A stretch of 64,000 bases of DNA from Strigamia acuminata. Its lineage: Eukaryota > Arthropoda > Chilopoda > Geophilomorpha > Linotaeniidae. The position numbers and the translations under genes are program-made. The stretch lies in contig OX442316.1 in the NCBI GenBank assembly GCA_949358305.1, forward strand, positions 11,966,001 through 12,030,000, in the 5' to 3' direction. The notes beneath the pieces are model-generated. The model did not search any database. It was not told where the DNA came from and saw only the letters and a program-made list of their open reading frames with translations. Position 1 is the stretch's first letter. Every line of letters begins with the position of its first letter. This document shows, in pieces, positions 22,105 to 61,935 of the stretch.

Positions 22105-25100
22105 TTAAAACCCGCAAATTTGTTTTTTCAACCACGATATTGGATGACCGCTAAATCTTAGAATAGACAAAACACTCATGCCCAAAGCTAGTCCAAAGCT
22201 ATTGCCAATATGAGCACACAGAGCCACTAGTGAATAGTCATCAACTTCAATTATCTGTTCTACTATATTAGAAAGCATGAGAAATGCAATGAGAAAAGGT
22301 TGAGATGTGGGTTGAATTTGATTGTAGGTATTCAGAATATAGATTGACTCACTACAAGACCGAATGCAAGAACAAGATTTAGTAATATTGCTCGAAATAA
22401 TCATATATTTGTTAAAGGTTTCCTTTGCTGCTGCAGCCGATGTACATTCTGAAAGATTCGCTACTGTTTCTTCTAGAAATGGCAACCTATGGTAATTAAT
22501 TTGAAGATCGGAGCTAAATTGTTTTAAAACTCTTTAATAACTTGATCTTACTTGCATAATTCAGCTTTTCGAATTTGTTCCAATAAACAAGTTTCTCGAC
22601 ATTTACGAAAGTCTGACTTGTCAATACAGGGATTCATCGGATTATTTAATCTTTTAACCTAGAAATAAAAGATTGTACGACATGAAATCATAAACAAGAA
22701 ATTTAGTCCTATAATAATAATATCTATTCTACTACTGACGGTTGTAAGACGAATGTCAGTTACAGTAATGGAATGCACAGCAGCAAGAAATAATTTTAGC
22801 TCGTCATAAGTCTCCGCATGAGTAGAATCAACATCACTAACATATATCTAAAAATAATGCAATTGAATTTGTTAGTTTTCATTTAAAAACTTATTTCATT
22901 TACATTTACAAATTTACATTTAAAACTGTATCGAACTACAGAGTAAAAACCCCATTTTATATTCATTGTCAGCTACTGCAATGTAATGTAATGAATACGA
23001 TATTGCATGTAGAATTGTTGAATATAAATGGCTTAGTTTCCATACTGTTTTTTATCAATTATTTTGAAGTAATTAAAAGATTTCCTTACTCTGAATGCAG
23101 CATTTGGGCACTTATAAAATGGTAATTCTTCCTGTGAAAGCATTGGTAACGGAAGAAAAGAAAAGAAACCAGCATATTCTGTTTCCGCTGTAAATGAAAT
23201 ATATCACATAAAATATAGGAAATAATTCATACATGAGGTTCGATCACTTTAGCAACGGGGTGTTTTAGTGAAGCAATAGTATGGTGTTAAGCTAAGTACG
23301 CATGATCTAATTCCGTGCACGAAATGGTCACTTTCTGTGAGCGGCCAGAAGTTTTGGTCGACGTGGTACACATAGTTCCGCTTACCATACACTGAAACTT
23401 TCTGGCAACCGGAATTCTATTCTTTCTGGCAGTGATGGTGTGCAGAAAAATCCAATTGTTTCCATGCACGAACAAATTCTGAGTACCCAGAAATGTATTG
23501 TGGCAATGCGCTCGATCGTGACCGATCGTACATAAGCTGGAGGTGGATACTGAATACAAAGACAGATAATACTAAAATTGTTTGATTAATTTATTTTATA
23601 ATTTATTATTAATTATTAATTTCAAAATACTGTAATCCACTTATTTTGCACAATCAAACTACAATATTTTGTAAAAGTGGTCGCCATTTGTTATTACAAC
23701 ACCTGCACAAATTGTGTGTACCAAACAATTTCCGCACATGGAAAGACCAGCCAAACACACAGGCGAAATCATTTTGTTTGCGGCGTGACAACCTGAAAAT
23801 TTAGACTCTGAACGTCTTATGTGTACTGAGCTTCAAGTCGCTCCTGTCGCTAAAGTGAACCTAGCCCCATTAGCAACTGTAATATTGTCTTGAATGATTT
23901 TGTTCGTTATGGCAGATGTAAATAAACCTCTACGTATAAATTAGTACAAAGATCCAGTGGCGGATTTCCCATAAGATAAAGCCTAGAGACTCCAAAAATT
24001 TAGAATTTGCGTTTTTCTTAAAAAAAAAAATTTTATCTTTGCAAAATAAGCATTTTTTCTAACCTATTTGACAATGGGGGCCCCAAAGGTCCTTGTACCT
24101 AGGGGCCTCCTCAACCACTGCAAAAGGATCAAACGCAGTGGCGTAGCAATCGGTAGTGCAACGCGTGCTTGGATGAAGGCCCACGAGCCTAGGGGCCCAT
24201 GGAGGATAAATGATAACGTGATTTTTTTTTTAGGTTTTTAGGTATTCGGAGGATAAAAACCCTAGCTATGGCTCTGCTAAAGGGCCCATCATCAAACTTG
24301 CTCACTGGCCCATTGATGTCTTGTTACACTGATCAAACGGTTAATTTACAAGCCTTGGCAAGCGGCGTCGACCCGAGTGTGTCTTCCCTTCTACTCAAAA
24401 AATTAATTGCTATGTATAAGCCAAGCTTCATACGTCACTTAAAGACAAGAACCAATAATTGACTTCTTCGTGCATGTGCATGTGCATTTTTTTTCGAGTT
24501 AGCCCAGCAGCCAAATTGCCATTTAAAAAATTAAGTTGTCTAAGTTAACTACCGTACTGCCTTGAATAAAGGCCGGGCGTAATGAAGCGCCGGCTCTTGA
24601 TTAAGCGCCGTCCAACCGACAGCCGAGAAGTCAATAAGCGCCGGCCCCGAATAAACGCCGGGCTTGTTTAACCGCCGGGCTTATTGTAAATTTGTGATGA
24701 CGTTTTATATCTACCGTACACGTACACGTAGCGTACGGTAGAAATGAGCTATTTAACACTCCTTCATTGTTTCACTGCTGCATTTCTACCATTAATACAG
24801 CGATATGGCTCCAACAAATTTGAAAAAACGTGCATACAACCACAAATTTTTTATAACTTGTTATTTTCAACTCAAGAGTCGAAAAAATAAATAAACGCCC
24901 GGGCGTTTATTCAAGGCAGTACGGTAAGTTATCAATGCGCATTTGTCAAATAAAATCATTCATGATCTGTAAAACAAAAATATACTATCCAAATATACGA
25001 GTACTTACTAAATTTGTAGTGATTACAATCCCCATGAGGAGTTGGTATGAATGTTTGGTTTGCAATTAATAGGTCAATTTGTACTATATTCTGCAAAGGT

Positions 25101-28100
25101 TAAAACACACAGAAGTAGTATACTTCCTACTCTAATGACAGGTTAGAGACCATCTATCTATGAAAAAGGTATTGGGTGTGTAAACAATCCAAGTAATCCA
25201 GCCCACAAAAGTACAGAGATTGATAAGCCTAGCATCAGTAGTCAAGCAGAAAGACTCCAATTTGAGTTTCAGTCTATATGCTATAGCTGGAGCAACAGCA
25301 AGTGCGATAATTTAAGTTTAAACTTAACAAAAGTTTTTTGTTGCATTAACTGGAACACACAATTGACGCCCCAATATTTTCAAAAATGTAACTAAAATGT
25401 CATGCTTGTGGCTATCACACCAGTTACCTGCCCGTTCAGGCTAACAAGTAAGTAAAGTGTAAGTTATATGATAGCATTAAACTTATGCTATGCTCACACT
25501 AGAACCAATTATCTACATAACTACTGTACCTAACTTTTAGAAACTCTCGTGTTTACACTTGTACGAGTTTACAACAACTCAAAACAAAATGGCGACTCTT
25601 CTACAACTTTAATGCCATGTTCACACTTGAACCACTTTTCTACAAAACCTGCCCACTTTTAAAAAGTCGTGTGTTCACACTTGTTCCAGTTTTTTACAAC
25701 TCAGAACAAAATGGCGACACTTCTACAACTGAACAAGGAAGGCGTCTGACCGACCGACCAACCGAACATCTGAGGCACATTACCTGGACGTTACGTTTAC
25801 CTGGCACCAATTTGAAACCCAGCGTTAATACGAACCAGGCGCCTATTGAATTTTGGGCGGCTAACTGCCAGCTAAAACGGGGCCGGCGCTTAAATGAACC
25901 CCGGCTATTAAACGAGCGGTACAGTACATGTTTCTACCTCTTACAGTTCGTGAAATACGAGCATAAATACGTTTCAGTCGCTTCGGTTAGAGTGGAAACA
26001 AGATTGTGACCATCGTTTTGGCCCCAAAATTATCTACTTTTAATGCAGAAACAAATTTAAAAACTATGTCAGTTTACTAAACTGGCATCTGCCTTTCTTT
26101 TAAAAAAGAATAGAAGTTTCTATCTTTAATGGTTCCTTAGCTACAAGTAGAAATGCAAACCCATACCTTTCAATGGATAACATCTTGCCAGACATAAACC
26201 ATCTACATTTATTTTTGGAATGCATTATTTACTCCAAGTAAAGTCACTAAAATTTCTACAAAACATGTAAACACCCACTTTTTAGCTTCTACAAGTTAAA
26301 GTTTGTAAAAGTGGCAACTTCTACAAAAGTGGTTCAAGTGTGAACTAACTTGTAAGCATTACTTGTCCAGTTATGCTTTCTTGTCATTGGTACATCAATA
26401 ATAGTTTTACCTTGATTATACCTGCAGCTCCTCCATAAAAATCTAAACGAGTCAATGTCCACAAACGCTTTAAAGTTTTGATTGGTTTCGGATATAAATC
26501 CAGTGATTCCACATCACACAAGCTGGTAATATTTTTTCCCTTCATGTATTTTTCTTTGTAGAATGCAAGTTTTTGATTTTCTCCACAAATAGTCAATGAT
26601 GGAAATGTCACATGACTCAGATACTTCAATTTTACAATATTCCGTGTAGGATGTTTAAAGTAATACAATGCACGTTCTTGAATCATAAATGTTGCCAAAG
26701 CAAAACACAGAATCAGTGTTACGTTCCACAAATAATTAGCCCTGTATTGCATTTGTATGTCGGTTAATCGTTTCAGTTGAACTTGTCTTATTTTAGCTTT
26801 TATTTTGTTGGCTGTGTATATTTTGAAAATAGTGATCTCCATTCGATTCAATTTGCTTTTCTTTGCTCTTCTGCATCTCCACATGATAATATGTTGAAGA
26901 ATATCTGTAATTGACAGCACTGATAAACCCATGAATAAACTCAAGTTTCCACCAATATCAGTTAATAAACTGATTTCATCGTAGGCGACTCGCTGAGTTA
27001 CAACCACTGCTTGTTTATTGATTCCAATCATTAAAGATGTGCCGTTTGATTCAAGGATGGCAGGTTGAATAGTATACACGTATTGGCGACATGTTGGCAC
27101 GCATTTGCATTCGGTATAGACTTTAGGAGTTAGGATTGCTTTGAGAGCAATAAAGAAACTTTTTTCTGCATTTTCTTTATCAGAACTTACGCAAGATGGC
27201 AGTTTGATTCTTGAATCTACGAAAGGCAGCCTATTAAAATCAAATGATATTAATAGTTTTAAAATTTATTTATATTTATAATTTGATTGACTAACTTGCA
27301 TTCAGCTTCAGAAAATTTTTTGCGTAAACAGTTTTTGTAACATTTTTTGAATTCTTCATCGCTAACACATGGATTTGAATACGTGCTTGACAAATAGTAC
27401 TAATTTTATAAATTAAAAAAAAAGATAGATTTAAAATTTGCAATGTGGGGAAATCTGATTTTACGCATAATATAAGCTTAGGTGCGAGAAGGAGATTGAT
27501 AATAACGTCCTGTAAAGCCCCCAAATTCCAAAAAAAATATAAAAAAAAATTTCTTAAAATAATATTCAAAAGCATTTTTTTTCGAATTCTTTTTTCAAAG
27601 GCCCGCCTCTGGGGCCCCAAACTTACACCGCGTCTATATGCCTCAAATGGTGTAAACGCGCCACTAGACTGATGTCATTGAATCTCAATGGATTTTTATG
27701 CCACCAGATACAGTAGATAAACTTAAAATAGCTAAACTAAAGGGAAGTGTTTTTTTTGTCCATGGTGACCTAAGAGAATGTGATCCACCACTTTTGTTCA
27801 ACAATAAAATGTCCAGTGTTTTAAATTTGTGTACAGTAGTAAAACTTACTCACTTTTCTGAATGTGACCAATATATCATAAGCATAGCCTGTTATTATTG
27901 GAATAAGAAATGCAAAATCAATTTTTTCACTAATTCCCACCTGAAACAAATCGTTTAATGTATTATAACCAACAAACATGCAGTTGCAAAGAAATATTAC
28001 TATTGTCAAAGATGGTGAACATCGTTTGGAAGGAATTAGCTTCAAATCAAGATGAGCATTTAATGTATTTCCACGTAACATTTCTATTGAAATAAAGTTA

Positions 28101-31259: not shown

Positions 31260-34200
31260 CTAAACGCTCCGGACTTTAGTTTGCAACCACATTATTGGAC
31301 GGTTGGAATATCTAAGAAAAGACAAAACACTCATGCCTAAAGCTAGCCCAAAACTATTGCCAATGTGAGCACACAGAGCAACCAGTGAATAGGCTTCGAC
31401 TTCGATTACGTGTTCTACTAGATTAGTAGTCATTAGAAATATTAGAAACGCAAGTGGTTTATCTTCGGGCTGAGCTTGATTGTAGCTATTGGTAAAATAG
31501 ACCATATCCTCGCAAGGTCGAACGCAAGTGCAAGATTTAAGTACATTACTTGTAATATTCATGTATTTTTTGAGAGTTTTCTTTGCTGTTGCAGACGAGG
31601 AACAGTCGGAAACATTCGCTAATATTTCATTTAGAAAAGGCAACCTACAATAATTAATTCGAAAGTCACTACTAAATTTATTCAATATGTTAATAACTTG
31701 CTCCTACTTGCATAATTTAGCTTTTTGAATTTGTTCTAGTAAACAAGTTTTTCTACATTATCTAAAGTCTGAGTTTTTAATACAGGGATTCGTTGGACTA
31801 TTCAGTCTTTTTATCTAAAATCAAAAATTGAAAATTGAATTGAAATCAGTTTTGTAAGAATGTTTAAATGTAAATTTTGTTTTGTGGCTTATCTATCTGT
31901 ATGAAAGTTTAATAAGGAATTCATTTGTAATTTGCGTGTATACTTACAACACTCAAGCGAATATCGGTTGCAGTAATTGTAAATCTAGGCCCATGCAACA
32001 GTGATAACTCATCAAATGTCTCAGGATTAGTAGAATCAACATCACTAATGTACAGCTAAAAAATTCAATCATATTTGTTAGTGTAAACAATTGCAATTCA
32101 GCATTCACAAGTAGAGTATTTATGTTATTTTCGTTTTTATTAATTTACCGGTATTTGTTTTACTAAAATTAAGCATTCCTTACTTTGTATAAAGAATTTG
32201 GACAATATATATAGTTATCATTCTTGATTTCCACAAAGGGTAATATAAACAAAGAAAAGAAACCAGCATATTCTGTTGACTCTGTAAATAATTTAGCTTG
32301 CAAGAAATTACTCCCTGCATCAGAAAAAATTAACTCCTACCAAATAACGCACTCTAAAAAAGTTTAAGTTGGCTCAGGGACAACTAAACAATTTAATAGA
32401 ATGATCTAACTCTGATTGTTGCCTTTACTAAAGTAACAAAATCCTAAAATTGTCTTTTAAGCAAATGTTTAATTGTCGCTGAGCCAACCAAATATTTAGT
32501 TAAAACAATCAATCCGTTTTTATAGATTGCGGGCACAACTGGCTTGAAATGGAACAAGCGCAACATTTTAGTTGGATTTTCGCAAATATTGGGAATACAT
32601 AATCTTCCATTATGTGTCTCTGTTAAGGCGCAAGGGGTCCAGGGCGTCTTGCTTTTTCGACTAGATTTAAACCTAAATTGTCGCGCTTGTCGCTGTAGTG
32701 CCAGCTTTTGCGAGCATCCCGTGTTATCTGTACCGTATTACCCCGCCTATTGCTGCATGCCGTTGGGCATGGGTTCATCATAGTTTTGAAATTGGGGGTA
32801 AAAAATCAATACCGGCATGCCGGTATAGAGCGAAACATGCCGGTATAAGTGAAAAAATTGGTTTTTTGTTTTTTTTGTTTAAAAGAGCCCAGATGATAAA
32901 TTATGTTAAAATTTGGGCCCTTAATTAAGTTTTCTTGATATTCTGAAGATTACTACTAAATTTTGTGGAACCTTTATAGAAATTTCGGCCAATTTCCTAC
33001 GTTTTAGACATCTAAATAGGCGTTTTAAGCATGTTTTGGGCTCAAAATTAAAAAAAAAATTCGTACTCACTTACACCGGCATGCCGTTAAAAACGGGGTT
33101 TATCGGCATGCCGGTAATACTCGCACTACACCGGCATGTGGCAATAAGCGGGGTAATACGGTAGGATCCTAACTTTGCTTGGTTTTAAGTCTACCAAAAA
33201 CTAAACCAGTATTTCACACAAGGATATATTTAAAATTGTATTTACCAAATCTGTAGAGAAGACAGTTTCCGTAAGGAGTTGGTACGTGTGATTGATTTGG
33301 TCGTAAAAATTCAATTTGGATTATCCCCTGCAAATAGTAAATATTTGACAATAAAACCACTGCTTCAAAAACGATCAACAGGGGTAACATGTTATTTTAA
33401 GTAGTCTATTTATATGCTGAAGCGTAACAACCCAATGTATGTACAATTTACAGCGCCCTCGTCCCAATCTAGCCATATTATACGATTAATTTTTTTTTAC
33501 TTTGATGCGGAGAACACATCAACCATTTTGTTCGATTATGAACAATGCCGGAAGAAAGGAAGGGCTAAACTGTCACTGGGCTTGTAACGCTTATGTATGT
33601 GCTTTGGTGCCATTAATCGTGTCTTGTACTCTTGGATGGGCATGCCGCTGTAGAAGAAATGAAATCTCTCTTTTCGTTGCATTATGATGATGTAAACAAT
33701 AAGGTTTTACCTTGACTTGGTTTGCAGTATCAGTGGGAGAAAGCCGTGTACTCTCCCACAACTTTTCCAAAGTCAACTTGTCTGGCAAATATAAATCTAG
33801 TAATTCCACTTCACATCTGGTAATGTTAAGCTTATGTTTACGTATATGTTTCTCCGCACGTTGAATAAATTTTGAGGTTTCACCACAAATAGTTATTGTT
33901 GGAAATGTAATATTGTGTAAAACCTCCAATTGCACAATATTACGAGTAGGATTTTTAAAACAATAAGATGCACGTTCTTGAATCATAAATATTGCCAAAG
34001 TAAGACATAGAAATAGCGTTATGTACCACAAGTAATTGGTCTGGCAATTTTGTAGTATTTTGACTGATTGTTCCAGTTTAGCATTTCTTATTTTAGCTTC
34101 TCTTATGCTGGCTGTGCATATTTTGAAAATCTTAGTTTCCATTCGATCCAGTTTTTTCATCTTTTTTCTTCTGTTTACCCACAAGATGATTTGTTGAAGA

Positions 34201-35816: not shown

Positions 35817-36073
35817 TTTTTACACTTCCTAAATTACAGTTCAATAATTTTCTATGATTTTTAAAATGTACATACGATACTGATTTACATTATGAATCTT
35901 CCCCTGGGTCACGGCGCTTTTTGTTAAGCCTCATAAATGAATGCCATTTTACACTTTCAAAATCAGCTTAATAAAAATGATTAATAAAATTTTACGTCGT
36001 GTTAGTTTGAAAGCCAAAACACACTAATAAACAACCTGTAGATTGTAGTTGATCATTTAACAAAACATTTGTA

Positions 36074-36350
36074 TGCTAGGAAGTTGGACAGTCTGCAATT
36101 CGCCAATTTGAAAATCAACTGCTGTTGGATATGACAAGTATTAAAGAAACCTGTCAGCTATTTGATAGCAGCAACCTAGTAAGCACGCAAATTATACGCA
36201 AAGCCTCATTCCCCGGAAATAAATCGACTGCGAGAAATCAACCAGTACTTCATAATCCGCTGGTAGTTAGTTGGTCGATCCGGAAGTTGTTTACAATTTT
36301 GCAAATTGTGCGACGAAGCTTTTTGCTAATCCAAATGAATGTCGCTATAA
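36074..36350 (-). pseudogene. Truncated exon-1 relic of the channel family
   Basis: Closely resembles exon 1 of copy I (29615-29890), including the first membrane helix region, but with small indels and loss of the ATG (upstream AAAATG changed to GCG). Similarity begins abruptly at about 36074 and continues past the start codon into the copy I upstream sequence. It marks one end of the tandem duplication that produced copies II and III. Confidence 0.75.
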
Positions 36351-39543: not shown

Positions 39544-39575
<32 letters not shown>

Positions 39576-51500: not shown

Positions 51501-54500
51501 TTCAATAATTCCGTCACCAACCCGTTGCTTCATCAGCGACGAGTTTGTTCATCCACGTCAAAGTTTCGTCGGAAACTCGTTGAATAGTGCGTTCAACAAC
51601 GCGTACATTCGTAAGTTTTTCGAAATTTATTTTAAAACGATTATAATATGTTAGATTCTAAGTTTGAATTTAAATATTTTGTGTAATTTTTTGAGTTTTT
51701 CTAGTGTTTGTTTTTCTGAAGAAAATAACCAGTTATTTTTGTAACCATTTATTCAATAATTTAAACATTATTTAATAAAACATTTTGAAGCATTCCATTT
51801 TTCGGTTTAGAGATTTTTAATTCTGTTAAAAATTCGACGAAAAATTAGTTTGATCTTCGGTTACGATAAAAGTTGAGATTAATGATGATTTCCGGTGAAC
51901 TTGTTTGTTTTTGAGAATTAGTCGAAGTGTTTGCACTTCAGCCTAATTAAGGGGGACTTGTGACGGTCATGACGTCATATTTAGTCCCAAGTTCACCGAT
52001 AGATGGCGCTATTTCCCATTTCGGCGGGAAATTCGAATATACATGTTATTTATGTGATATTTATATAAAATTAAAGGTTTTATATAAATCCACGGTATCC
52101 TTAGATATTATATCATACTAGTATGATATAGTTGAGTCTTTATTCCTCCAGTTGTGTTATGATTTGGACAAATTATAACAACACCTGGGCAAAAGGATTA
52201 AGTCACCCCTCACCACCCACAGTGTTTGAAGATACACTTTGAATTAAGACAATAGCCTTAATTGCAAATGTGTCCTCCGTATCCACTTCCTGGGACAGAC
52301 TTTGTAGAAGACTGTGTCCCCTGTATCCACTTCCTATTTACTAGGATTGGACAGTTTTGAGTGACCAGTGTTCCTATTGGAGCAATGGTCAACTCATTGT
52401 TTCTACTGAGCATATATTCCAGTGTAAACCGGAAATAGCTCGCTCTTGTTTTTGTTTCTGTTTGATATCTACTTGAGCCCTTATTCTACGCTTCGCTTCG
52501 CTTCGCTTCATGCCAACATTCCGTTGTAGGGGCACGTGCATTAAATTCCGTGCTCAAACCCTTTCCGTACTTCATGCCAACATTCCGTTGTAGGGGCACG
52601 TGCAGTAAAATGCCGTGCTCAAACCCTTTACCTGACTACATGCCAACATTCCGTTGTAGGGGCACGTGCATTTTATGCCGTGCTCAATTCCTTTTTCCGC
52701 CGAGACATTAGGGTCAAACCTAGTGTTGGATTGACGTGAGCGCCATTGATTCAATTCTGGGCTGGTTGTACTTTGGTGCAACAGAATCGACAGGGTCTTT
52801 TCATAATCGTTTTATTTATACAGGTTTTTTTAGTTATGTTTGGTTATTAGATTATTTGTAATTTAATAACTCAATTCATACCTTTGCATGTTTGGATTTA
52901 TTCGTAAATTTAACATGAGTTTCGAAGTCTAACTTTGAGTAACTTTTATTTATGGTTATTTTGATAATCATAAATAGACCAATTGGTAAATATCTACGAA
53001 TAGATATTTAAACCAATGGTCACCCAAAGTTGTGACGATGCAGCAAAGACAACCGCATTCCTCGGATAATTTGGTTACACAGAACCAACCGAAGCAGACG
53101 ACAATCAGTCCGATTGCAGACGACACCTTTTACGCCCGAAATAAGAACTTTACACACTCTTATTTCAAGGCTGAACACAACTGTTAACGTTATTAGGGCT
53201 TTTTGAGCCACTCGTTTGTATAGTTAGTTACACACATATTTTACTGGCCATTTTGTCGGCCATAGTTATTATATAACTTATTTTGACTTGAATAAATGTT
53301 CTATGTTTTGAGAAACATAAACGCTTCATTCTTTGCACTTTACTACACTCTGCAGTTTCACTTGTCCTTTTAGCCTTAATTCCTATCCCGGGTAGTCATC
53401 GTCACACACTAGTCGGGTGACCAAGCGATTTTTCCGCTGAAGAAATGTTTTTGGCCTGGCGCCTGAGCTGGCATAATCGACAGTCCGTAGGATGGGCCCG
53501 CTGGAATTGGGTCTTGACGTTGAAATCGACGAGTTGACGGGCTGTATTGTCGTAAATTGTCCTGAGGTCTTTATAGCCTTTTTGGTCGCTTTTACAGCAA
53601 CACCAGCAGCAGGATTCAATGTTGATGAAGGTCTCGTTTTCTTCTTGACCAGGGAGACCGGCATTTCTTCTGGTTGAACTGATTCGAGCTCCGTTTGGTA
53701 GGTATCTCCTCGTTCATCTCGTTCATTCAGCAGTTTGACCAACTCGGCCGAATGTTTGGAAATCGAAGCTGGTGGAGACTTCTTTTTTAGCGTTGGCGAA
53801 ACTGGTGTCTCTACTGATTGAATCGCTGGGAGTACATGCTTGTGAGCGATCTTCCGTGGCTTCCGCTTCTTGTGAAGTTGGATGGCCGATTCGGCCAAGT
53901 GTTTGTTACTAACAAGTACAAGTTCTTGCTGTATGGTCGACGAATCTAGGAGAATGGACCTCCAGTAGTCTAAAAAATTATCTTGGTTACCGGTATTCAT
54001 CGGTGGTGTCCAGAGACATATTGCGTCTGCGAGGGCAATTCGATTGCTTGTGGCGGTGCTCTGAGTTAAAATGCTGCAGAGTCCCGCGACCAATAATTGT
54101 TGTAAAGCGGAGAGTTGAATGTCCAGGGCATTGGTTGGCTCCATGTCGCGCAGATGATTGATTATACGCTGCCAATTTTGAATGGTTTTGCTAATTTGAG
54201 TCCTTTGATACTCATTCAGGTCTTCCATCAAAATATCTTGTGTGTCACGAGGCAATACTTCAACACTGGACTTCGTCATGTCATAATTTTGGTCAAACGA
54301 TCGGCTTTGAGTCAAAGAAACTGTTTCGAATTTCTCAGCCGGAAATTGGGATTTTGTGGTGCTTGTTTTTGGATACACAGAGGTCGTGATGGAGTTTCTA
54401 ACAATAGATACTTCTTGTGCATTCGGATGTGTTAACACTGGGGTCAAATGGGTAATTGGTTTCTCCAAATTTTCAACTTGCATTAACACTGGGGTTGAAT

Positions 54501-57500
54501 TGATAATTGACTTTTCCCAATTTTCAACTTGCGTTGCCCAATCCATAGCCGTTTGGTCGGCAGTCTGTGAAAATTCCAAGGGATAATCTTTTTTGATTTT
54601 TGCCGCTGTTGGCACGGAATTAATATTTTCCAACAAGGCGATTGATGTTGGAGTGGCGGAGATCGGCGCATCACTGGTTGAGACATAAATTTCCGTCGGC
54701 TGCGATGTGTCGGTCTCTGCGTCCCATCGTTTCTCTGCTTTGCTGAGAGGCTTTTCCTTTGCAATTGTCCCAGATGCATTAAACGAACCTTTTGTAAAAA
54801 GTTTTTTAGGCTTACATTTAATTTCAGTCACATGTTTAGCTAACACTACACTGGTGTTACTAATTGTTGAGCCGGTTTCTTTTTCGGCTTTCACTTTAGC
54901 TTTGAGATCGACTTCATTCATCGAGTCAACAATGGTAAGTCGAGTATGAGAATGAGAAGTTTTTGTAGAACAATGAGGATTCTGCACTTGATTAATGTTT
55001 TTTGCCGGTTTCTCGGCAAATGTAGCTGCACTTGATCTCTCGAAAGTTTGTTCTCGGTATTCAAATGTTTTTTCAATCTCTTCAGTCGCGTTATAAATTG
55101 GGGTCCAATCTGAGAGCGAAGATGCACATGTTTGAGGACGACTTTGTTGTCCCCCCACCTTAGGTGAACGCGTTGACTGTTCACTGCTGAAAGCGGAATT
55201 TTCACGTCTTGATTGATATGGCGGAGAACAATCACTACTTTTTTCGCATTCCCTCTTTGGTGGATTAATATATGTTGGTGAACCGTAATGTGATTGAGAG
55301 TCATTGAAATTATTTTCGATATCTGAATTTTTGCAGAAGTTGCTGGATAATTTCGCACTTTGTTCACAATTTTTTGAGTCTATTATATTCAATAATGCAT
55401 GGCTATTATTAAATATTTCATCACTTGAAGTGTTCCATTTTTTACAGTCAGAAGCTTCCATCGTTGAACTTCTTTTCGTTTGAAATTTTCGTTTGTCATT
55501 ACTGGACGCACAGAACGAACGATTATTGTCAGTAGTTGCAAGATTAACCATTTTAGGTTTGAACGCCGTGACATCCGGCGGATTCGGTTGTTGAGTTGTA
55601 AACTCGGCTGATCGAATCTTCTTCAAGAGTTCGTCTATCTCTTCCTGAGATTTTTGTATTTCCGCAAATTTTGCCGTCCATTCGGTTTTGTGAAATTGTC
55701 GGCATGGTGATGATGGTGTTTCACGAATTTCATGCGACTTTTTCCATTTTCGATCCGCATCTAACCGTTGTTGTGGTTGTAAGGTGAAGGATTCGTCCTC
55801 ACGGTGGGATAAATTCTTTGTACGCACTTGTCGCAGATTGGCTATTTCTTGAAGTTCCAATTCGCGGGCTTTAGTTCTATTACAAATTTCTTCGTCTAGA
55901 GCTTGTTTAGTTTCGTCAAGCTCTCTGCTTGTTCTTTCCAATTCTTCAATTTCGGCACTTTCATTTGCATTTTCCTCGGCCGCACAATGTTTATTTAAAA
56001 CGAGTTTGGCTTGTGATAAATTCAATCGGTCACGAGTTAGTTCCATTTCGAATGCTAATGTCTCTATTCGATAATCCATTTCATCGACAAATTGTTCGCT
56101 TTCAAAATTGATCGTGGCTAGGCGAATTTTCTCGGCCGCGTCTGGATCTACGAGGAGAACTTCGGCAACGAGCGCTTCAAACTCTGGTGACCGCTGAGGA
56201 AATTCATATCTTTGTCTTGGAGTCGAGGTGCGTGGTTGAGTACGATCATTTACTTTGTCAATACTCCTTTTTGTTTCAGCATCCATTTCACGATCCGTTG
56301 AAACATTTTTGAATTTTTGAAATGAACGTTTTTTCGCATCAAGTGAAATTTCAGCCGATATCTCGGCTTCGGCGATTTCCAATCGAGTTTCGGCTGAGCG
56401 TTTAGCCGTTACTTCCTTTGGAAAACTACTGCGCCGAGTTTGGGCACCTTGTGGGCAGTTAGACCCGACTATTGGACGACTATACGTCCTTCCCTCAATT
56501 GGCGAAGGGACTTCATCATGTAACTTAGGCATGATGGCAAGAATGTTACAAAAAGAGAAGAAAGATGATAGGAAAGTTAGAAAAATAGGTAAAAAATACT
56601 AAAATGGGGAAAAACAAGATTTTTTAATTTTTTAATCTTACTTTAAATTCTAAAAATTCTAAAAATTGGGATAATCCCGGACGGGCCCCCAAGTGTTGCG
56701 TTCCTGGATGTTCCCAAAATATATGATAATAATAATTGCACAGAATATTAATCTAATTCAATGCAAAAGGTCCCGGTATTCAACCTGTGGAAAGCAGTTG
56801 AATGCCGTAAAAGGTCTTCTATCGGGTTTGGCAGTTAAGTTGGTGTCTAGGGGTTTTTTGGCTGTGGTTTTTGTGTCTAGGGGTTTTTTGGTAGCAAATG
56901 CAATAATAACAAGTAATTTAAAAAAGGATAAACAGTTTTATTAACGTTAAAATTAAGGAGTAATATAAATACAAGGGATAAATGAATAATTAAATGAATA
57001 TTGATAAAGTTAAACAAGGAAAGAAGAGAAAGGCGCGAGAACAATGGAATTGTTCGCGCGCGCGGAAACAATAGGTTGAGAAAATGGCGGCAACGAATCG
57101 CCGTGAAAATTGGTGCAAATGCACACAAACGGGCGCGGAATCGTGAGATTTCGCGATGTGATTCGGCTGTGGAGCCAGAATCGTGGCCAGCTAAATAGCC
57201 AGGCCGGGGTGGAGAATACGAGGTGTGAACCCTCGAGTTGAAACGGGAAATTCTCCGTTGAAAACTCACGAGTCCAACTGGCGTAGTTCGCACTGTCGAA
57301 TTCGGTTTTCAGGTCCGTTTCTTCTCGGCAAATTATCGTCGTCGGCAGGTCGAGCGTCGAGGTTTCGTCGGCTTTCGCGCGTCGTCCCTCGTCAACTCGG
57401 CGGCTGGCTGGCGTCGATCTTCAACGTATGTTGATCGAATTACCGTCGTCGGTGGCTAGCGTCGAGGTTTCGTCGGCTTGGCGCGCGTCGTCCCTCGTCA

Positions 57501-60500
57501 GCTTGGCGTCTTCCAGGCGTCGGTCTACGATGGCGTGTGTACGTTTATCTTCGGGCGGCGGCGGAAACAACGGTTGCTCGGTCCGTTGCACGTCGACTTC
57601 GTCGTCCGGGAAGGAGTCACTTGATGTGGATTGGCATCAAGCAAATCGGATGAAACTTTGCAATTACTCACGGATCACGGACAAAACAGTGTTGGTTTGG
57701 TTGAACAAAGCTGTGTCGGTGTGAACGGTGTGAGGAGGAGGCAAAGAGTGAGTAATAAACGAATTTATTACTCAAACTTTGGCCGGAAAATCGGTCGAGT
57801 GCGCATGCGTGGCATGCACCTGGCACACTTCGTGCCCAGCAACGGTGCAAATTAGGAGCTGGCCATAGCAACCCCCCAATTTGGCAGTTAGGTTGCCATG
57901 GCAGTCCTAACGGCTTCTGTTTAACAGCCGAAAGCACTTGGCAATTGCAAATAAAATGAGTATTTTATTTGCACAAGCAAGCAAAAAATATGTAATTATT
58001 TTAACAAATAATTCATTAAAAACACTAAAATAAATTGATTCCTTAAATTACCAATTTCTACTATTTCTAAATAATTAAAGGGACTGTAAAACAATTTATT
58101 TAACACATTAAATAGATTAAATTATTAATTTCTTATACTCCAAATATTCCAAATAAAAGGAACATTTGAGATCACAACAACGTACACTTCGTTTGTGACG
58201 TTCAGACTTCGTTTGTTACATTAAACAAATGTAACAAACGAAAAACCGAAATTGTAATTGCTGACAAAAATGGCAGTTTTGAATAAGAGCCGCAACTATT
58301 GATCGATAAAATATTGTATTTTTAAAATTGTATTATTTACCAAATCTGTAGTGAAGACAGTTTCCGCAAGGAGTTGGTACGTATGATTGATTTGGTCGTA
58401 AAAATTCAATTCGGAGTACTTGCTGCAAATAGTAAAGCACATTAATTCAATATTTGACAAGAAAACCACTGCTTCATAAACGATCAACTGCAATATTGTA
58501 CTGAGATGTGACAGGCAATTATAAGTAGTTTATTTATGCTGAAGCGTAACAATCCAATGTACAATTTAAAGCGCCCTCGTCCCAATCTACCCCTATTATA
58601 CCATTACTTCTTTTACTTTGATGCGGTGAACAAATCAACCACTTTGTTCGATCATCATTCCACTTCTGAATTTATAAACAATGCCGGAAAAGAGGAAGGG
58701 TTAAACTGTTACTGGGGTTGTAACGCTTATACTACTCAAACCCAGGTGTAAGTGGTCACCTCTTTTCAGTATGTAATCAAAATGTTTATTTCAAGTTTTT
58801 CAGGTTTAGTGTAATAAATAAATAAATTTGCACATGAGGGTTGAAAAATACACTGAATTTACTTTAATTCAAAAAAAAAAAAACCAAAATAAAGAAATAA
58901 ACAAAAAAGTTATGACTGATTTCAGTTGTGTCACTTGCCTCAAATGAAAGTGGTCACTGCACTACTTGACTCATGTGAAAGTGGTCAAGTCATTTTAATA
59001 TCTTGTAACATCTCCTTTAGCATTAATTACTGCCTGAATACGGTCTGGCAAGGTTTCTATTAGTTCTTGACAATATTCTGGAGTGATCGAGTCCCACACT
59101 TCGTCAAAACCTACGTGTGATGGGTTTGGAAAACTGAGCAAATGAGTTGACTTTATGTTTAGAATCATTTTCCTGCTGAAATATCCATGTCAAAGGCAGT
59201 TTATTATCTGCAAATGAAAGCATAACAACCCTCCAATACTTTTTCATAAGTATATTGGTCCATGAAACCCTTAATTTAATGTTGGAAAATGATTCTAAAC
59301 ATAAAGTCAACTCATTTGCTCAGTTTTCCAAACCCATCACACGTAGGTTTTGACGAAGTGTGGGACTCGATCACTCCAGAATATTGTCAAGAACTAATAG
59401 AAACCATGCCTGACCGTATTCAGGCAGTAATTAATGCTAAAGGAGATGTTACAAGATATTAAAATGACTTGACCACTTTCACATGAGTCAAGTAGTGCAG
59501 TGACCACTTTCATTTGAGGCAAGTGACACAACTGAAATCAGTCATAACTTTTTTTTTTATTTCTTTATTTTGGTTTTTTTTTTTTGAATTAAAGTAAATT
59601 CAGTGTATTTTTCAACCCTCATGTGCAAATTTATTTATTTATTACACTAAACCTGAAAAACTTGAAATAAAAATTTTGATTACATACTGAAAAGAGGTGA
59701 CCACTTACACCTGGGTTTGAGTAGTATGTGCTTGGGTGCCACTAATCGTGTCTTGGATAGGCATGCCGCTGTAGAAGAAATAAAATCTCTCTCTTTTCGT
59801 TACATTATGGTGATGTAAACAATAAGGTTTACCTTGACTTGATTTGCAGTATCAGTGGGAGCAAACTGTGTACTCTCCCACAATTTTTCCAAAGTCAACT
59901 TGTCTGGCAAATATAAATCTAGTAATTCCACTTCACATCTGGTAATGTTAAGCTTATGTTTACGTATATGTTTCTCCGTACGTTGAATAAATTTTGAGGT
60001 TTCTCCACAAATAGTTATTGTTGGAAATGTTATATTGTGTAAAAACTCCAATTGCACAATATTACGAGTAGGATGTTTAAAACAATAAGATGCACGTTCT
60101 TGAATCATAAATATTGCCAAAGCAAGACACAGAAATAGCGTTATGTACCACATGTAATTGGTCTTGGAATTATGCAGTGTTTTGGCTGATTGTTCCAGTT
60201 TAGCATTTCTTACTTTAGCTTCTCTTATGCTGGCTGTGTATATTTTGAAAATCTTAGCTTCCATTCGATCCAGTTTTTTCATCTTTTTTCCTCTGTTTAC
60301 CCACAAGATGATTTGTTGAAGAATATCAATAATTGACAGCGTTGACAAACCCATGAATAAACTCAAGTTTCCACCAATATCCGTTAATAAACTGATTCCA
60401 TCGTAGGCTAATCGCTGAGATATGGACATTTCGATTTGATGCAGTGAAACTTTTATGCGAGTATCATCTGCTGCAGTGATAGAAGGCCGAAAAGCGTAGG

Positions 60501-61935
60501 TGTATTGGCTGCAAGTTGGCGTGCAATTGCATACGGTGTATACTTTAGGAATCAGGATAGTCTTGAAAGCATTGAAATAACTATTTTCTGCATTTATAAG
60601 ATCAGAACTATTGCAAGTTGGTAGTTTAATATTTTGATCTACGAAGGGCAGCCTAAACAAATACGACGTATTAATGATTTAGATTAATTTATATTTGTTA
60701 ATTGAATTATTTGCTGCACTGAACTGACTTGCATTTAGCTTCAGAGAGTCTCTTCTTCATACAATTTTTGTAACATTTAGTAAATTCTTCATTCGTAACA
60801 CACGGATGATTGCGTGTACTACTGAAATAGTACTGTTTTAAATACATAAATTAAAATAAAACATTATTGCAAACCATGTTAAATTAGTATTTTAGTATGC
60901 CAATATTACTAATGCTTAGAAAATTTGCTTACTGATTTGAAGATGAGTTCCAAATCATAAAAATATCCAGTTAATACTGGAAGAACCAATGCAAAATCAA
61001 CTTTGTCCTGTACTGCAACCTAGACAAATTACGGTAATAAATTTAACATATAACATCCAAAAAAAAATATTACCATTGGCATAGATGGATTGCATCGCTT
61101 TGATTTACGTAACTTCATTAAAAGTTCACCCTTTAACATTTTCCCTTCTAATTTTCCTGCATAAATCAATTAAAATTTTACTCAAATTGAATAAAACTGA
61201 TTACTTTGTTTTACAGAATTAAACATTTTAAAACGATTTTGTGGTTTAGTTTATATATTGCCTAATCCAAACATTAAATTCGTATACTTAACTGGTTATT
61301 TCCACTCTGGTGCACTGACCATAAAGAGATTTATAAAACGATTTTCGTAAAACTTTTAAATGAAGATTCTACCGAAAAAATGTGAAAATATCATTTTATT
61401 ATTTCTAAACATTTACTAAACAGCCGAAAAATTTATTAAGTATTAAATCTATTAGTAAATTATTCAAACAACTTACGTCTGTTGCATCAAGTGTATCCAA
61501 TATGAGAGATTCGTTCTTATAAGTCCACACTTTCAAAATGTCAACTTCGTCGCCTTCGTTCATAGTCCAAATTTTTATAAGTGGAAAATAACAAGCTAAT
61601 GGGTCAACGCTTTCCTTAAATAAATCAAGTACGTAGTCACTTTCACCTGAACAGACATCAATAGTAGGAAATTTGAGCGGCTGCAAACTACCAATTCGAA
61701 TGTCAACGGCTGTTGGAGCTGACACGTAATAAAGAACTCTGTCTGTTATTTGATAGCAGCTACCGAGTAAGCAAGCAAATACTACGCAAAACCACAATCC
61801 GCGGACGTAAATCGAACGCATGGAATCAACCAATATTTGGTAATCATCTGGTAGTTGATGATTATCGGTCCTGAATTTATTCACTATTTTGTAAATTTTA
61901 GAACGAAGCTTCGTGTCAATCCAAATGAATGTCAT
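38127..61935 (-). CDS. Twin-module DEG/ENaC channel, copy III (intron 7 holds nested transposons)
   Basis: Exons: 61477-61935, 61293-61368, 61074-61156, 60933-61019, 60729-60832, 59833-60652, 58341-58422, then across 19.2 kb of inserted DNA 39049-39146, 38815-38922, 38575-38681, 38127-38511. Every exon has the same length as in copy II; the total of 2409 nt is open (802 residues). Module 1: TM1 GLWFCVVFACLLGSCYQI, FPTIDVC, pore helix GGNLSLFMGLS. Module 2: TM1 LWYITLFLCLALAIFMI, FPTITIC, pore helix GNSFGLALGMS. The split exons still carry clean splice sites, so splicing over the giant intron is possible, though the insertion may reduce expression. Copy II lacks these intron insertions, so they postdate the II/III duplication. 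Confidence 0.85.
39374..39536. mobile_element. TIR miniature transposon (family TACCGTACTGCC), copy 3
   Basis: 163 bp with inverted ends TACCGTACTGCCTCATTTAA and reverse complement, TA at both sides, GCCGGG-rich interior; the shortest of the three copies. Intron 7 of copy III. Confidence 0.82.
39545..39578. repeat. (AAAT)n microsatellite
   Basis: About eight tandem AAAT units right after the miniature transposon at 39374-39536. Confidence 0.9.
40068..41553 (-). repeat. 3' LTR of element A
   Basis: 1486 bp, equal in length to 56694-58179; I noticed no differences by eye. It has a CpG-rich block (about 40400-41000) containing two imperfect tandem copies of a roughly 115-nt GTCGTCGG/GCGCGTCGTCCCTCGTC unit in an otherwise AT-rich window. 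Also two close copies of TGTCTAGGGGTTTTTTGG near 40220-40265. Short frames inside are duplicated in both LTRs and are not genes. Confidence 0.92.
41554..41566 (-). other. Polypurine tract of element A
   Basis: On the minus strand AATTGGGGGGAAG lies directly before the 3' LTR start. This is the expected place for plus-strand DNA priming in reverse transcription. Confidence 0.8.
41890..42480 (-). pseudogene. C-terminal part of element A ORF, cut off by element B
   Basis: Open for 196 codons to a TAA at 41890. Frame and position fit exactly as the continuation of the long ORF that ends at 53407: with the insertion and one CACT copy discounted, the reading frame is continuous. Rich in Pro, Lys and Arg near the junction; no retroviral enzyme motif. 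Any apparent GTG start at 42481-42483 is the target duplication and not a real start. Confidence 0.75.
42485..43932 (+). repeat. 5' LTR of element B
   Basis: Matches 51959-53406. Contains a perfect CRE-type TGACGTCA at 42496-42503, a perfect 22-nt palindrome at 42635-42656, three tandem 64-66-nt units (43035-43222) and two AT-rich hairpins near 43470-43535. Confidence 0.95.
43035..43222 (+). repeat. Three tandem ~65-nt repeats in the LTR
   Basis: Units start at 43035, 43099 and 43165 with CATGCCAACATTCCGTTGTA, followed by GGGGCACGTGCA (containing the E-box CACGTG) and a variable tail. Preceded by CTTCG microsatellite repeats. The same array is at 52509-52696 in the other LTR. Confidence 0.88.
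43935..43952 (+). other. Primer-binding site of element B (tRNA-Gln type)
   Basis: TGGAGGTTCCACCGAGAT starts 3 nt after the 5' LTR and is complementary to the 3' end of eukaryotic tRNA-Gln (…CTCGGTGGAACCT plus CCA), as known from the tRNA family. Confidence 0.8.
43953..44728 (+). other. Leader (5' UTR) of element B
   Basis: 776 nt between the primer site and gag. No reading frame with family features; this is the usual location for packaging and translation signals, none of which I can identify with confidence. Confidence 0.5.
44729..46837 (+). CDS. gag: Gag polyprotein of element B
   Basis: 702 codons from ATG (MPRDQS) to TAA at 46835. Structural protein of the retrotransposon particle that packages its RNA. 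The N-terminal third is Arg/Ser/Pro rich. Residues about 230-330 are extremely Asn/Asp/Arg rich, with repeated DRND/NDRN motifs. The capsid-like region begins near residue 371 (LEIPIFDG...) and extends to about 545. One CCHC zinc knuckle (CYYCHEPGHIKRNC, about 607-620) provides nucleic acid binding. The last sense codons AAA AAA AAC immediately precede the stop and form a ribosomal slip site. Confidence 0.93.
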   Translation: MPRDQSMVLFGSVHGGSGDGDRPIERSNPNSLRTEHLPIPDELEVFCRHYQLNMTQFSSVGEARRFTENCRGRPPPQPLSPEVIVVNRQTSRGTLPNTYQRDRNPDPEAARSRPREEAPLFAAENSEPNPPPRSSSRQEREIDRIGPATPERRRSASPTSRRQREQSRRTPPWRDPFPDGREDNGLRNTRTPQPELRSPNFYRRRLSPRRENSPRRGNSTRISPSRSNRSRDVSPVRNNFNDRNNNNYNDFDDDNFNYNHRGRDNYGPHSRGGRNNFYPPRYDRNDQNEEDNRNYQNDRSDRNNQYDRNDRNDQNDRNNRNHFRRSHSPRMSQDFSSNNSAPPLSNDSLRQIIQGLSGQSRNHQNQNRQSGKSLEIPIFDGNQKEVARFLEIVKAAALGRGVPLDDMVHQDVPGHLLGHAQKWFHQNNHQFSNWKTFERMFVKRFDLVPLTRARRLDNVKQRSDESLYCFLLRFTQEQGKIPPGDMAGTTSLFKNINQESFSLLMTHGLYGDCTVDDILQYVGTHRCRFENATQLAAELECDNGETPSVAKNNKESKLFPSKTSFRATHTEEENSNEQDSDDTDGEVEESSMERMFAAHFESTTGKCYYCHEPGHIKRNCLKLANKLKEGNGGKSDSNKRFNPSSTLDLSKRPKPNWVTAEFLDQKLDAKLADFQATMTDLFKSHLKAATAPVPTPSEDKKN
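46828..46868 (+). promoter_or_regulatory. Programmed -1 frameshift signal (gag to pol)
   Basis: Slippery heptamer A AAA AAC at 46828-46834, in the gag frame and directly before the TAA. After a 7-nt spacer there is a perfect 9-bp stem: GGGGGTTGA (46842-46850) pairs with TCAACCCCC (46860-46868) around a 9-nt loop. The pol frame is -1 to gag and is open from this point, so the elements fit the classic retroviral design. A pseudoknot is possible but not shown. Confidence 0.88.
46834..51096 (+). CDS. pol: Pol polyprotein of element B (Ty3/gypsy)
   Basis: Open from the frameshift site, about 1420 codons; expected to be made only as Gag-Pol fusion. No ATG near the start; numbering below is from 46960. 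Domains in order: aspartic protease (ALMDSGATQ, Asp 116); reverse transcriptase (fingers KWKLQPYRMYNP, palm YLDD with Asp near 454); RNase H (TDAS near 602, ELECLAVVWA, ESDAQAL); integrase zinc finger (HPLTGH ... CPHC, near 915-950); catalytic core Asp 984, Asp 1043 (SDNGRQF), Glu 1078 (NITERANR); GPW-containing GPY/F-like module; Lys-rich tail. All catalytic residues are present and no stop or frameshift interrupts them, so the element may be functional. Confidence 0.94.
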   Translation, partial: LIQGVDTISQPPIKPFISLDKAIDAVSLEQPKLLTKGLTIPYLSDSKNSLDPLDMEIDFDLIPTLVQATSSTGGVNEGIDSMTNQLENLSIFHGNWNKYKIKNKFGKIKRSQLGKIFVPKDRVEKISKVYDSKSATRFIDDPRMNINIGGLNYNALMDSGATQCFIGIQLLSNTEIPVEFIQECPKGMRVCAVGIDHKPLGQVTLCVNWANKTKMTPTNFIILEKNVCGLILGHNFMRRTGINLNPLRAVFTCDFMPGWTAPYETTELNCSLARLRAIDAKGDETHTPADWAERLVADCDSSDENKEKLRQVILSVQNAFRDKVGCTNVAKHSIKFKEGAKWKLQPYRMYNPAKKAIMTELVEELEAEGLIEPSTGPYISHPVIVAKPNGTYRLCIDYRWLNNITVIDTIQMPSIDLLIHNTNKAKYFTSLDLTQGYHQMEMAEEDKSKTAFYTPKGKFQFKRMPFGLCNAPSSFQHLMSGVMGEALYNHALVYLDDIIIFSTSWKKHLEHVKDVLEKLDKANLTINKAKSKFGRTALKFLGHYITSEGLLPDPDKTSAVRKFPTPTCSKDIQRFHGLSNFFRKFIPHHATIARPLTSIMHDSAKFVWGKAQEDAFERIKDILCDKDQALHMPDMTKQFVVLTDASHDGLGAVLCQDVEVFDAKKQKMVLHPKPVAYASRVLRGAEERYSTPELECLAVVWAVDKFRPYLEYTTFTLESDAQALKWLMSTPEPSGRFGRWAVRIQCGAFKIEFRRGALNQVADALSRAPLSALDTPADDYLEPEEITQFFPNWTGNRHLCLKPSDKRCATFSNLHVHFDDFPEAANADVSAISGEKGEDTDNCCKNKNATLYSALTDVLKEAPPTRREIIDAQLKDQECSKILVYLKATDEQKKEITDEYWLNITQRYSLDEEEEDGGQMLIYFCPTYEEELNDSGNGFKAVIPRVLVKRALFACHGHPLTGHAGMSKTLERAKLMYFWPKMRKDVRNYVRSCPHCQQYKPNQHQQRRSGYVPHNMTNPWETVSIDLMGPKPAGRSQLQWILVVIDHCTKWVEVFALATASSECIVNRLSEVFHRWGYPKKIISDNGRQFVSTVFEEFCKRNHIDIIHVSPYHAAANITERANRDLKMLLAIYSDVHSHWPKYLNHFAFSMHTTKSEATNTTPMLLNTGRTVPLPFDPRIIKHAIKFDRENPEAYVFSILEVIKRAHQEMHRKIQRNYEKHDKIHRDKFYICDFVVGDLVWKATHILSNKDKGISAGFAEKRNGPWEITAVLSGGSAYALRKISDGSKEPSVNIQDLSPYIPSYPIEEWTIDQRVGTSGPHPTPKWMEEHATNSEKLIKENIPMETEIPIESRKDEVPQKSRKKRKLETPAERPKRVTKPNPKYVTDFVQLLKSLRQKTWTGFKEKSPRIRKVRNQKKSA
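51097..51948 (+). other. 3' noncoding region of element B
   Basis: About 850 nt between the pol stop and the polypurine tract. Contains a short unsupported frame (51354-51587) only. There is no envelope-like gene. Confidence 0.6.
51949..51958 (+). other. Polypurine tract of element B
   Basis: AAGGGGGACT abuts the 3' LTR; a G-rich purine run in the expected priming position. Confidence 0.75.
51959..53406 (+). repeat. 3' LTR of element B
   Basis: 1448 bp, same length and, as far as I can see, same sequence as 42485-43932, including the triple repeat and palindrome (52109-52130). Confidence 0.95.
53407..56532 (-). pseudogene. Giant ORF of element A (N-terminal 1042 codons), broken by element B
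   Basis: Starts at a true ATG at 56530-56532 (MPKLHDE). It is open to the insertion point, after which it runs seven codons into the LTR of element B and stops at 53383. Ancestral length with the part at 41890-42480 is about 1238 codons. Rich in charged residues with a long probable coiled coil (about residues 120-240, heptad-like Leu/Glu/Arg pattern), then Ser/Thr/Asn-rich low-complexity segments, and a more ordered, hydrophobic-patterned stretch near 790-920 (YQRTQISKTIQNWQRI ... LDYWRSILL). No CCHC knuckle, protease, RT or integrase seen. Possibly a Gag-like structural protein or a captured coding sequence; function unknown. Confidence 0.8.
56673..56691 (-). other. Primer-binding site of element A (tRNA-Pro type)
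   Basis: On the minus strand TGGGGGCCCGTCCGGGATT begins 2 nt inside the 5' LTR boundary. It is complementary to the 3' end of eukaryotic tRNA-Pro with one mismatch (C where the usual tRNA-Pro site has T). Confidence 0.75.
56694..58179 (-). repeat. 5' LTR of element A
   Basis: 1486 bp, paired with 40068-41553. Same CpG-rich internal block; no differences noticed by eye. Confidence 0.92.
58730..59726. mobile_element. Foldback Tc1-like transposon: near-perfect 444-bp inverted arms
   Basis: TA-bounded 997-bp palindromic element in intron 6 of copy III. Arms 58730-59173 and 59284-59726 are near-perfect reverse complements around a 110-bp loop. Each arm encodes the C-terminal end of a Tc1/mariner transposase (right arm, plus strand: WDSITPEYCQELIETMPDRI ... 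then stop). The minus strand across the loop gives WIFQQENDSKHK, matching the Tc1 FQQDND(P)KH catalytic motif with Glu before the catalytic Asp. No complete transposase. The corresponding intron of copy II (about 33.59 kb) lacks it. Confidence 0.85.

Follow-up and report, generated by a model that had tools for sequence, protein, structure and literature searches.

A gene family for putative two-module DEG/ENaC chains in the centipede Strigamia acuminata

RESULTS

Three genes of one 11-exon plan

We analyzed a 64,000-nucleotide stretch of the Strigamia acuminata genome (here, the window; positions 11,966,001 to 12,030,000 of a 19-Mb contig in a 237.5-Mb assembly). Three genes in the window (A, B, and C), all on the minus strand, follow a plan for a DEG/ENaC chain made of two channel modules (module 1 [M1] and module 2 [M2]); we refer to such genes and their predicted products as twins. 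Exon-by-exon splice models gave each gene 11 exons separated by GT-AG introns. Gene A (22105..29887) is intact and encodes 805 amino acids, with exons 1 to 6 at 29887-29417, 29340-29265, 28083-28001, 27940-27854, 27399-27296, and 27230-26411, and exons 7 to 11 at 25090-25009, 23187-23090, 22847-22740, 22658-22552, and 22486-22105. Gene B (31260..35816) has the same 11-exon plan (exons 1 to 6 at 35816-35358, 35249-35174, 35037-34955, 34899-34813, 34710-34607, and 34530-33711; exons 7 to 11 at 33327-33246, 32281-32184, 32055-31948, 31814-31708, and 31644-31260). Because of an in-frame TAA in exon 10 (31758..31760; residue 658, in M2), this gene is probably broken in M2. Gene C (38127..61935), also intact, encodes 802 amino acids and has a 19-kb intron 7 (exons 1 to 6 at 61935-61477, 61368-61293, 61156-61074, 61019-60933, 60832-60729, and 60652-59833; exons 7 to 11 at 58422-58341, 39146-39049, 38922-38815, 38681-38575, and 38511-38127). 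The products predicted from the coding sequences of genes A and C are ~92 kDa each.

Exons 2 to 10 are identical in length in the three genes (76, 83, 87, 104, 820, 82, 98, 108, and 107 nt). An initial reading of this DNA made from its letters alone (the sequence-only reading) had stated that exon lengths are kept across three paralogues, which holds for these nine exons. That reading had also counted the three paralogues as joint support for a functional fusion. The common exon plan stands, but the three genes are unequal witnesses, since B and C are recent copies of one another (88.7% identity over the 820-nt exon) and B contains a stop. A segmental duplication (30217-32295 / 37033-39162 and 33595-36059 / 59724-62186; 91-93% identity) pairs gene C and an orphan first exon with gene B and the start of gene A. 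The orphan first-exon remnant (36066..36342, minus strand) is spread over two frames and is nearest to exon 1 of gene A (80.6% over the main stretch).

Other elements were also present in the window. Two nested long terminal repeat (LTR) retrotransposons occupy intron 7 of gene C (40068..58179), with outer LTRs at 40068-41553 and 56694-58179 and inner LTRs at 42482-43933 and 51956-53407. Each pair is 100% identical, and both insertions therefore look young. The inner element (42482-53407) contains a plus-strand pol open reading frame (ORF) (RVT_1, RNase H, and integrase) and a gag-like ORF with a Pfam score just below the cut-off, and the outer element apparently carries an ORF of 1071 aa on the minus strand (53383-56598) that matched nothing in Pfam. 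A 1-kb inverted repeat (58729-59727; 92.9%, blastn) lies in intron 6 of gene C. Outside the three genes, we observed exons of an animal haem peroxidase gene on the minus strand (1839-9114), apparently in at least two copies, and a 357-aa plus-strand ORF (20276-21349) with no Pfam match, which by eye looks sulfotransferase-like.

The junction exon

The two modules meet within exon 6, an 820-nt exon found at 26411..27230 in gene A, 33711..34530 in gene B, and 59833..60652 in gene C. The sequence-only reading had placed these exons exactly, without giving their strand (minus in all three). An AG acceptor and a GT donor border each of them; the coding frame contains no stop (0 in A, B, and C), and the remaining two forward frames contain 11 to 26. 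In this frame, the M1 pore helix with GGNLSLFMGLS (26921..26953 in gene A) is followed by a linker, a hydrophobic helix, and then FPSLTIC or FPTITIC. The linkers of gene A (26738..26878; net charge, +13), gene B (34038..34178), and gene C (60160..60300; net charge, +10) are each 47 codons long and contain 14 to 15 K/R versus 2 to 4 D/E. In all three genes, exons 7 to 11 encode a second ectodomain and a second pore helix with GMS. The proposed stop-free passage from a pore helix through a basic linker into a new first helix with an FPxxTIC motif, followed by this second ectodomain and GMS-bearing helix, was thus borne out, with the linker length fixed at 47 residues.

Both modules belong to the DEG/ENaC superfamily

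The Pfam ASC profile (PF00858) matched genes A and C with 119.3 and 117.1 bits, respectively (gathering score, 23.6), in three stretches each. The ASC family search also exceeded the cut-off in 1 of 14 control genomes (Thermotoga maritima), which is odd for an animal channel family. On hydropathy only, peaks at residues 42-60, 372-390, 439-457, and 766-784 of the gene A product correspond to two helices per module, and further peaks lie in the ectodomain (208-226) and directly before the last helix (742-760).

An FPxxTxC-type motif after helix 1 is typical of the DEG/ENaC superfamily. In the window genes, it has the M2 forms given above and degenerate forms in M1 (IPNIQLC, FPIIDVC, and FPTIDVC). 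The G-x-S filter in helix 2 reads GLS and GMS in the window genes and GMC in M2 of Strigamia maritima; over 76 junctions from the genome-wide set described below, the M1 filter was GLS in 63, GFS in 5, GMS in 4, DLS in 2, GLL in 1, and GVS in 1. The His-Gly dipeptide before TM1, a conserved motif that we did not take as defining, was found in neither module of genes A, B, and C. A canonical DEG/ENaC subunit has one module per chain; the coding sequences of genes A and C hold two.

We also compared the modules with solved structures. Residues 441-803 of the gene A product matched BRTNaC1 (broad-range thermal receptor 1 of centipedes; PDB 8ymr and others) with an E value of 2.4e-20, and residues 39-396 matched PDPNaC1 (proton-dissociation-permeated sodium channel of Scolopendra; PDB 9jf7) with an E value of 1.3e-16. 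As profiles, both modules scored BRTNaC1 best (M1, 1.7e-21; M2, 6.6e-22), with PDPNaC1 at 2.1e-19 for M1 and 4.2e-11 for M2. Within one gene, M1 and M2 share 20-22% identity (72/366 to 80/367), and comparison of their profiles gave a probability of 98.4 (E value, 5.8e-15) over 331 columns. The intron phases 0,1,0,0,2 recur in both modules (5/5), and four of the five intron pairs lie within 2 alignment columns of each other. Because the introns of the two modules share phases, order, and (4/5) positions, exon 6 is most simply explained as the last exon of one six-exon unit joined, with no intron, to the first exon of the next.

Pore position 18'

An ASIC study (PMC5449180) describes an acidic residue at position 18' of helix 2 as highly conserved in DEG/ENaC channels. 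In ASICs, E18' lies at the inner pore end and sets sodium selectivity; E18'A is nonfunctional, and concatemers with one of three E18' residues neutralized kept the selectivity order, which neutralizing two or three abolished (PMC5449180). Among the window and S. maritima sequences that reach 18', M1 has Asp (5/5) and M2 has Arg (5/5). In a set of 12 twins, with the nearest downstream pore-helix exon assigned to M2 and two last exons read by eye (L117 and L118), every chain had exactly one acidic 18' (12/12), the M1/M2 pairs being D/R (7 twins), D/H (1), E/H (1), A/E (2), and E/L (1). Over the 76 junctions, the M1 residue was D in 31, N in 19, E in 18, A in 5, and K, Y, and H in 1 each; the twins with Asn (19/76) may lack any acidic 18'. 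The asymmetry is reversed in the subfamily comprising L057, L108, and L116 (C1:26.8-28.6 Mb), with Ala in M1 and Glu in M2.

A genome-wide family of junctions

A genome search with the S. maritima protein T1JD59 scored 90 matches, of which 78 span the junction, and four more searches with divergent junction exons listed 150, 151, 153, and 150 matches. We counted 81/90 rows from the first search (the other 9 covered the first helix region only) and 143/150, 136/151, 73/153, and 150/150 rows from the others; many of the rows omitted from the 153-match search looked present already from other searches. After places no more than 700 bases apart on one contig were merged, at least 440 unique places in the 237.5-Mb genome had a match spanning the junction with both motifs. 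Of these, 426 were stop-free in at least one search, and 14 showed a stop in every search that detected them. Since 335 of the 440 places turned up in a single search, the family is probably larger. A small number of identical copies are part of the count, as are 8 places on small contigs (C30, C32, C50, C68, C76, and C95) that may be haplotypes.

Ninety-nine of the places were examined at the sequence level, the rest of the 440 being known from match coordinates, and 96/99 cross the junction in one open frame. The first sample consisted of 76 fetched T1JD59 places and the three window exons, and 76/79 run from the M1 pore helix to M2 helix 1 without interruption; the exceptions are L019, L024, and L031, with L024 falling short of the far side of the junction. 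All 20 places in a second sample, hand-picked across contigs and not random, also cross it. The linker is 32-54 aa long (median, 38) across 76 junctions and is net positive in 75 of them.

To these we added ten 10-kb stretches, chosen by hand across contigs and not at random. Six showed the full order of TM1 exon, junction, pore-helix exon, and a stop 7 to 41 residues on (L108, L109, L110, L112, L113, and L115, the first exon of the last being weak and cut by the end). The others were incomplete: L114 lacked the last exon, L116 lacked the first, and L107 and L111 had the junction only, even by motif scan. In none of the ten stretches did a first exon and a last exon enclose more than one junction; the plan as observed thus has two modules and no more. 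The cluster in the window extends beyond it, with at least three more junction exons (L016, L017, and L018; G000:C4:12038034-12052629) on the same strand. On contig C10, we found 18 pore-helix matches to BRTNaC1 and, among the matches listed, none of the 440 junction places. Single-module DEG/ENaC genes, which would be candidate third subunits, may thus exist in the same genome (e.g., at C6:3525121 or on C10).

Junction-crossing proteins in Strigamia maritima

Protein searches, which reached only relatives sharing short exact words, returned four matches, all from S. maritima (228 to 472 aa). Two of the four (T1IIL9 and T1JD59) cross the junction, T1ITW4 falls short of it, and T1JD36 ends inside the linker and may represent a one-module gene or a cut gene model. 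The best junction-spanning match of T1JD59 in the present genome has 62% identity over a junction exon, too low for S. maritima itself to be the source of this DNA. The sequence-only reading had looked to related crustacean genomes; the four S. maritima matches and the nearest solved structures, two Scolopendra channels, agree with a myriapod source instead. Compared with the 805-aa twin, these fragments illustrate that gene predictors can miss the fusion. The main text of the S. maritima genome paper contains no mention of degenerin, ENaC, pickpocket, or amiloride.

When the modules were placed in one tree, the M1 rows formed one clade (100/100) and the M2 rows another (100/100). BRTNaC1 and PDPNaC1 fell outside both clades on long branches, with unsure placement. 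Neither module grouped with BRTNaC1 or PDPNaC1 as an orthologue would; each forms its own clade. Given that S. maritima proteins cross the junction and that the M1 and M2 rows group separately, the fusion most simply predates the split of this lineage from S. maritima.

Selection on the linker

We estimated dN/dS from 30 independent close paralogue pairs (i.e., the set after removal of three near-identical copies; linker lengths differ in 5/30 pairs). The values were 0.46 for the M1 part, 0.66 for the linker (95% interval, 0.56-0.80; 0/1000 bootstraps at or above 1), and 0.45 for the M2 part. An earlier set of 32 pairs had given 0.72 for the linker. In the window genes alone, linker dN/dS was 1.7-2.4 with intervals that include 1, i.e., no purifying selection was visible, and a neutral-drift test on the window linkers of A versus C was weak (chance of no stop, 0.11-0.28). 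Both flanks of the junction thus show purifying selection; the linker shows it only when the family is pooled. The pooled value over the 30 pairs argues that the linker is translated.

DISCUSSION

A probable single chain with two modules

The central claim of the sequence-only reading was that two modules and four helices share one frame and that selection has kept them so. This claim is upheld by at least 440 genomic places, 96/99 loci, two of the four S. maritima proteins, and the constraint on the pooled linkers. We consider it highly probable, from these genomic data, that the loci encode a natural family of single-chain, two-module DEG/ENaC proteins. One mRNA would give one ~92-kDa protein with four helices, both ends and the linker being cytosolic; M1 and M2 would be complete, nonequivalent modules joined by a short, positive, and probably cytosolic linker. 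We found no report of a natural two-module DEG/ENaC chain in the open-licence literature searched.

Such a gene could have arisen from a six-exon gene duplicated in tandem or from two related neighbors that fused. In either case, loss of the DNA between the ancestral units would have merged the terminal exon of the upstream unit and the initial exon of the downstream unit into a single exon. With regard to these two origins, BRTNaC1 and PDPNaC1 stand on long branches, and the profiles of both modules score BRTNaC1 best.

How twins might assemble

The DEG/ENaC superfamily is described as trimeric (PMC9822975; PMC12714832). A two-module chain alone leaves a module over in any trimer, which makes the stoichiometry rule testable with natural constructs. 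The sequence-only reading had proposed 1.5 chains per trimer, a twin with a single subunit, or a hexameric or novel assembly, all of which are candidate solutions. We tentatively favor a model in which the twin is a preassembled heterodimer that would fill two of the three positions in an ordinary trimeric pore. Given two unequal modules, a short basic linker, and a superfamily described as trimeric, the simplest reading is a hard-wired heterodimer in need of a third module. Either a single-module DEG/ENaC subunit or a module from another twin could take the third position. Within the chain, the acidic 18' would come from one module, and its partner, which has Arg, His, Ala, or Leu there, would tune conduction or gating. 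ASIC concatemers engineered with added linkers of 19 residues are functional (PMC10329638); joining subunits in one chain therefore need not prevent function. An AlphaFold2 model of T1IIL9 (13 rows) was of low confidence (mean pLDDT, 41; pTM, 0.24), and we drew nothing from it.

Two other arrangements of whole twins appear unlikely. In one, two twins would form a single pore of four modules (2 x 2), against the trimer rule of the superfamily. A doubled module usually suits an even-numbered pore, as in K2P channels and two-pore channels (TPC). In addition, cross-linking has been used to argue that ASIC1a forms tetramers at the cell surface, and concatemers of the tetrameric kind were reported to function (PMC4529235). 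Against this, each structure entry of the solved relatives BRTNaC1 and PDPNaC1 contains three chains, and the study of PDPNaC1 reports a homotrimer (PMC12714832).

The other arrangement, which we judge similarly improbable, consists of three twins, in which modules of one kind would form the conducting trimer and those of the other kind would be tethered to it as another trimer or arranged around it as a ring. The deep split between M1 and M2 (20-22% identity) and their difference at 18' fit such like-with-like assembly, but the two trimers would have to be connected through three linkers of 32-54 residues each.

It is quite improbable that each locus instead gives two proteins, with M2 made alone from an internal transcription or translation start, or with the linker cleaved, so that ordinary single-module subunits assemble. 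An in-frame Met in the linkers of A, B, and C, with a favorable G at +4, could start M2; its -3 base, however, is C, versus A at the exon 1 starts of the three genes, and the Met is replaced by Ile in T1IIL9 and missing from many linkers of the family. T1JD36 ends in the linker, and a donor-like GTAAG occurs in the linker of gene C, not in those of A or B. Against separate products, 96/99 loci have no stop between the modules, and the pooled linker is under purifying selection. The M1 pore-helix exon of A, B, and C has no stop before the M2 start, and read-through into intron 6 meets a stop only 8-39 codons on, past the first helix of M2. Intron 5 is just 65-76 nt, and a promoter for M2 alone would therefore sit mainly in M1 coding sequence. 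As for cleavage, a cytosolic linker would be away from furin-type proteases.

An artefact of assembly or gene models (merged tandem genes or pseudogene debris) might be suggested by the stop in gene B, the 14/440 stop-bearing places, the identical copies L041-L043, and the match of L015 on the small contig C50 to the gene C junction, but it is extremely improbable, since the junction sits within a single exon and not between merged models, and varied junction sequences occur in hundreds of places and in a second species, and the pooled dN/dS of each flank is below 1.

Possible significance

The size and clustering of the family suggest that the twins constitute a previously unrecognized sensory receptor repertoire in centipedes. 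We regard it as possible, though doubtful, that myriapod twins are among the largest animal ion-channel families (hundreds of genes) and form a chemo-, thermo-, or pH-sensory repertoire with an assembly new to the superfamily, i.e., a pore of hard-wired asymmetry in which each chain typically has one module with an acidic 18', built as 2+1, 2x2, or 3x2. The asymmetry at 18', the selectivity residue, offers a ready functional handle.

Comparison with known channels

The predicted twins are DEG/ENaC proteins by homology, yet they differ from the known channels, which are defined by a one-module subunit. K2P and two-pore channels also carry a duplicated pore module in one chain, but their fold is unrelated and their pore symmetry is even-numbered; they are a precedent for twins only in how they work. 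BRTNaC1 is the closest solved relative of M2, and the M1 profile also scores it best. It is a compact DEG/ENaC chain of 431 residues with a GIC filter, one module, and three chains per structure entry, and it has Glu at 18', where M2 of the window genes has Arg. PDPNaC1 (421 aa; GAS filter) is related to M1 and more weakly to M2, and its structure entry likewise holds three chains. It is reported to be a single-module homotrimer encoded by a nine-exon gene (PMC12714832), whereas the window chains are two-module. Subunits of ASICs, ENaC, and degenerins resemble twins in the ASC profile, in modules built of an ectodomain and two helices, and in the GxS filter; they differ in having one module per chain and an acidic 18' (E18' in ASICs; PMC5449180), in place of the two modules of a twin. 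Engineered ASIC concatemers resemble the twins in that subunits are joined end to end via short cytosolic linkers (PMC10329638 and PMC5449180). They differ from them in being laboratory-made constructs of three units, with known subunits and designed linkers of 19 residues (PMC10329638).
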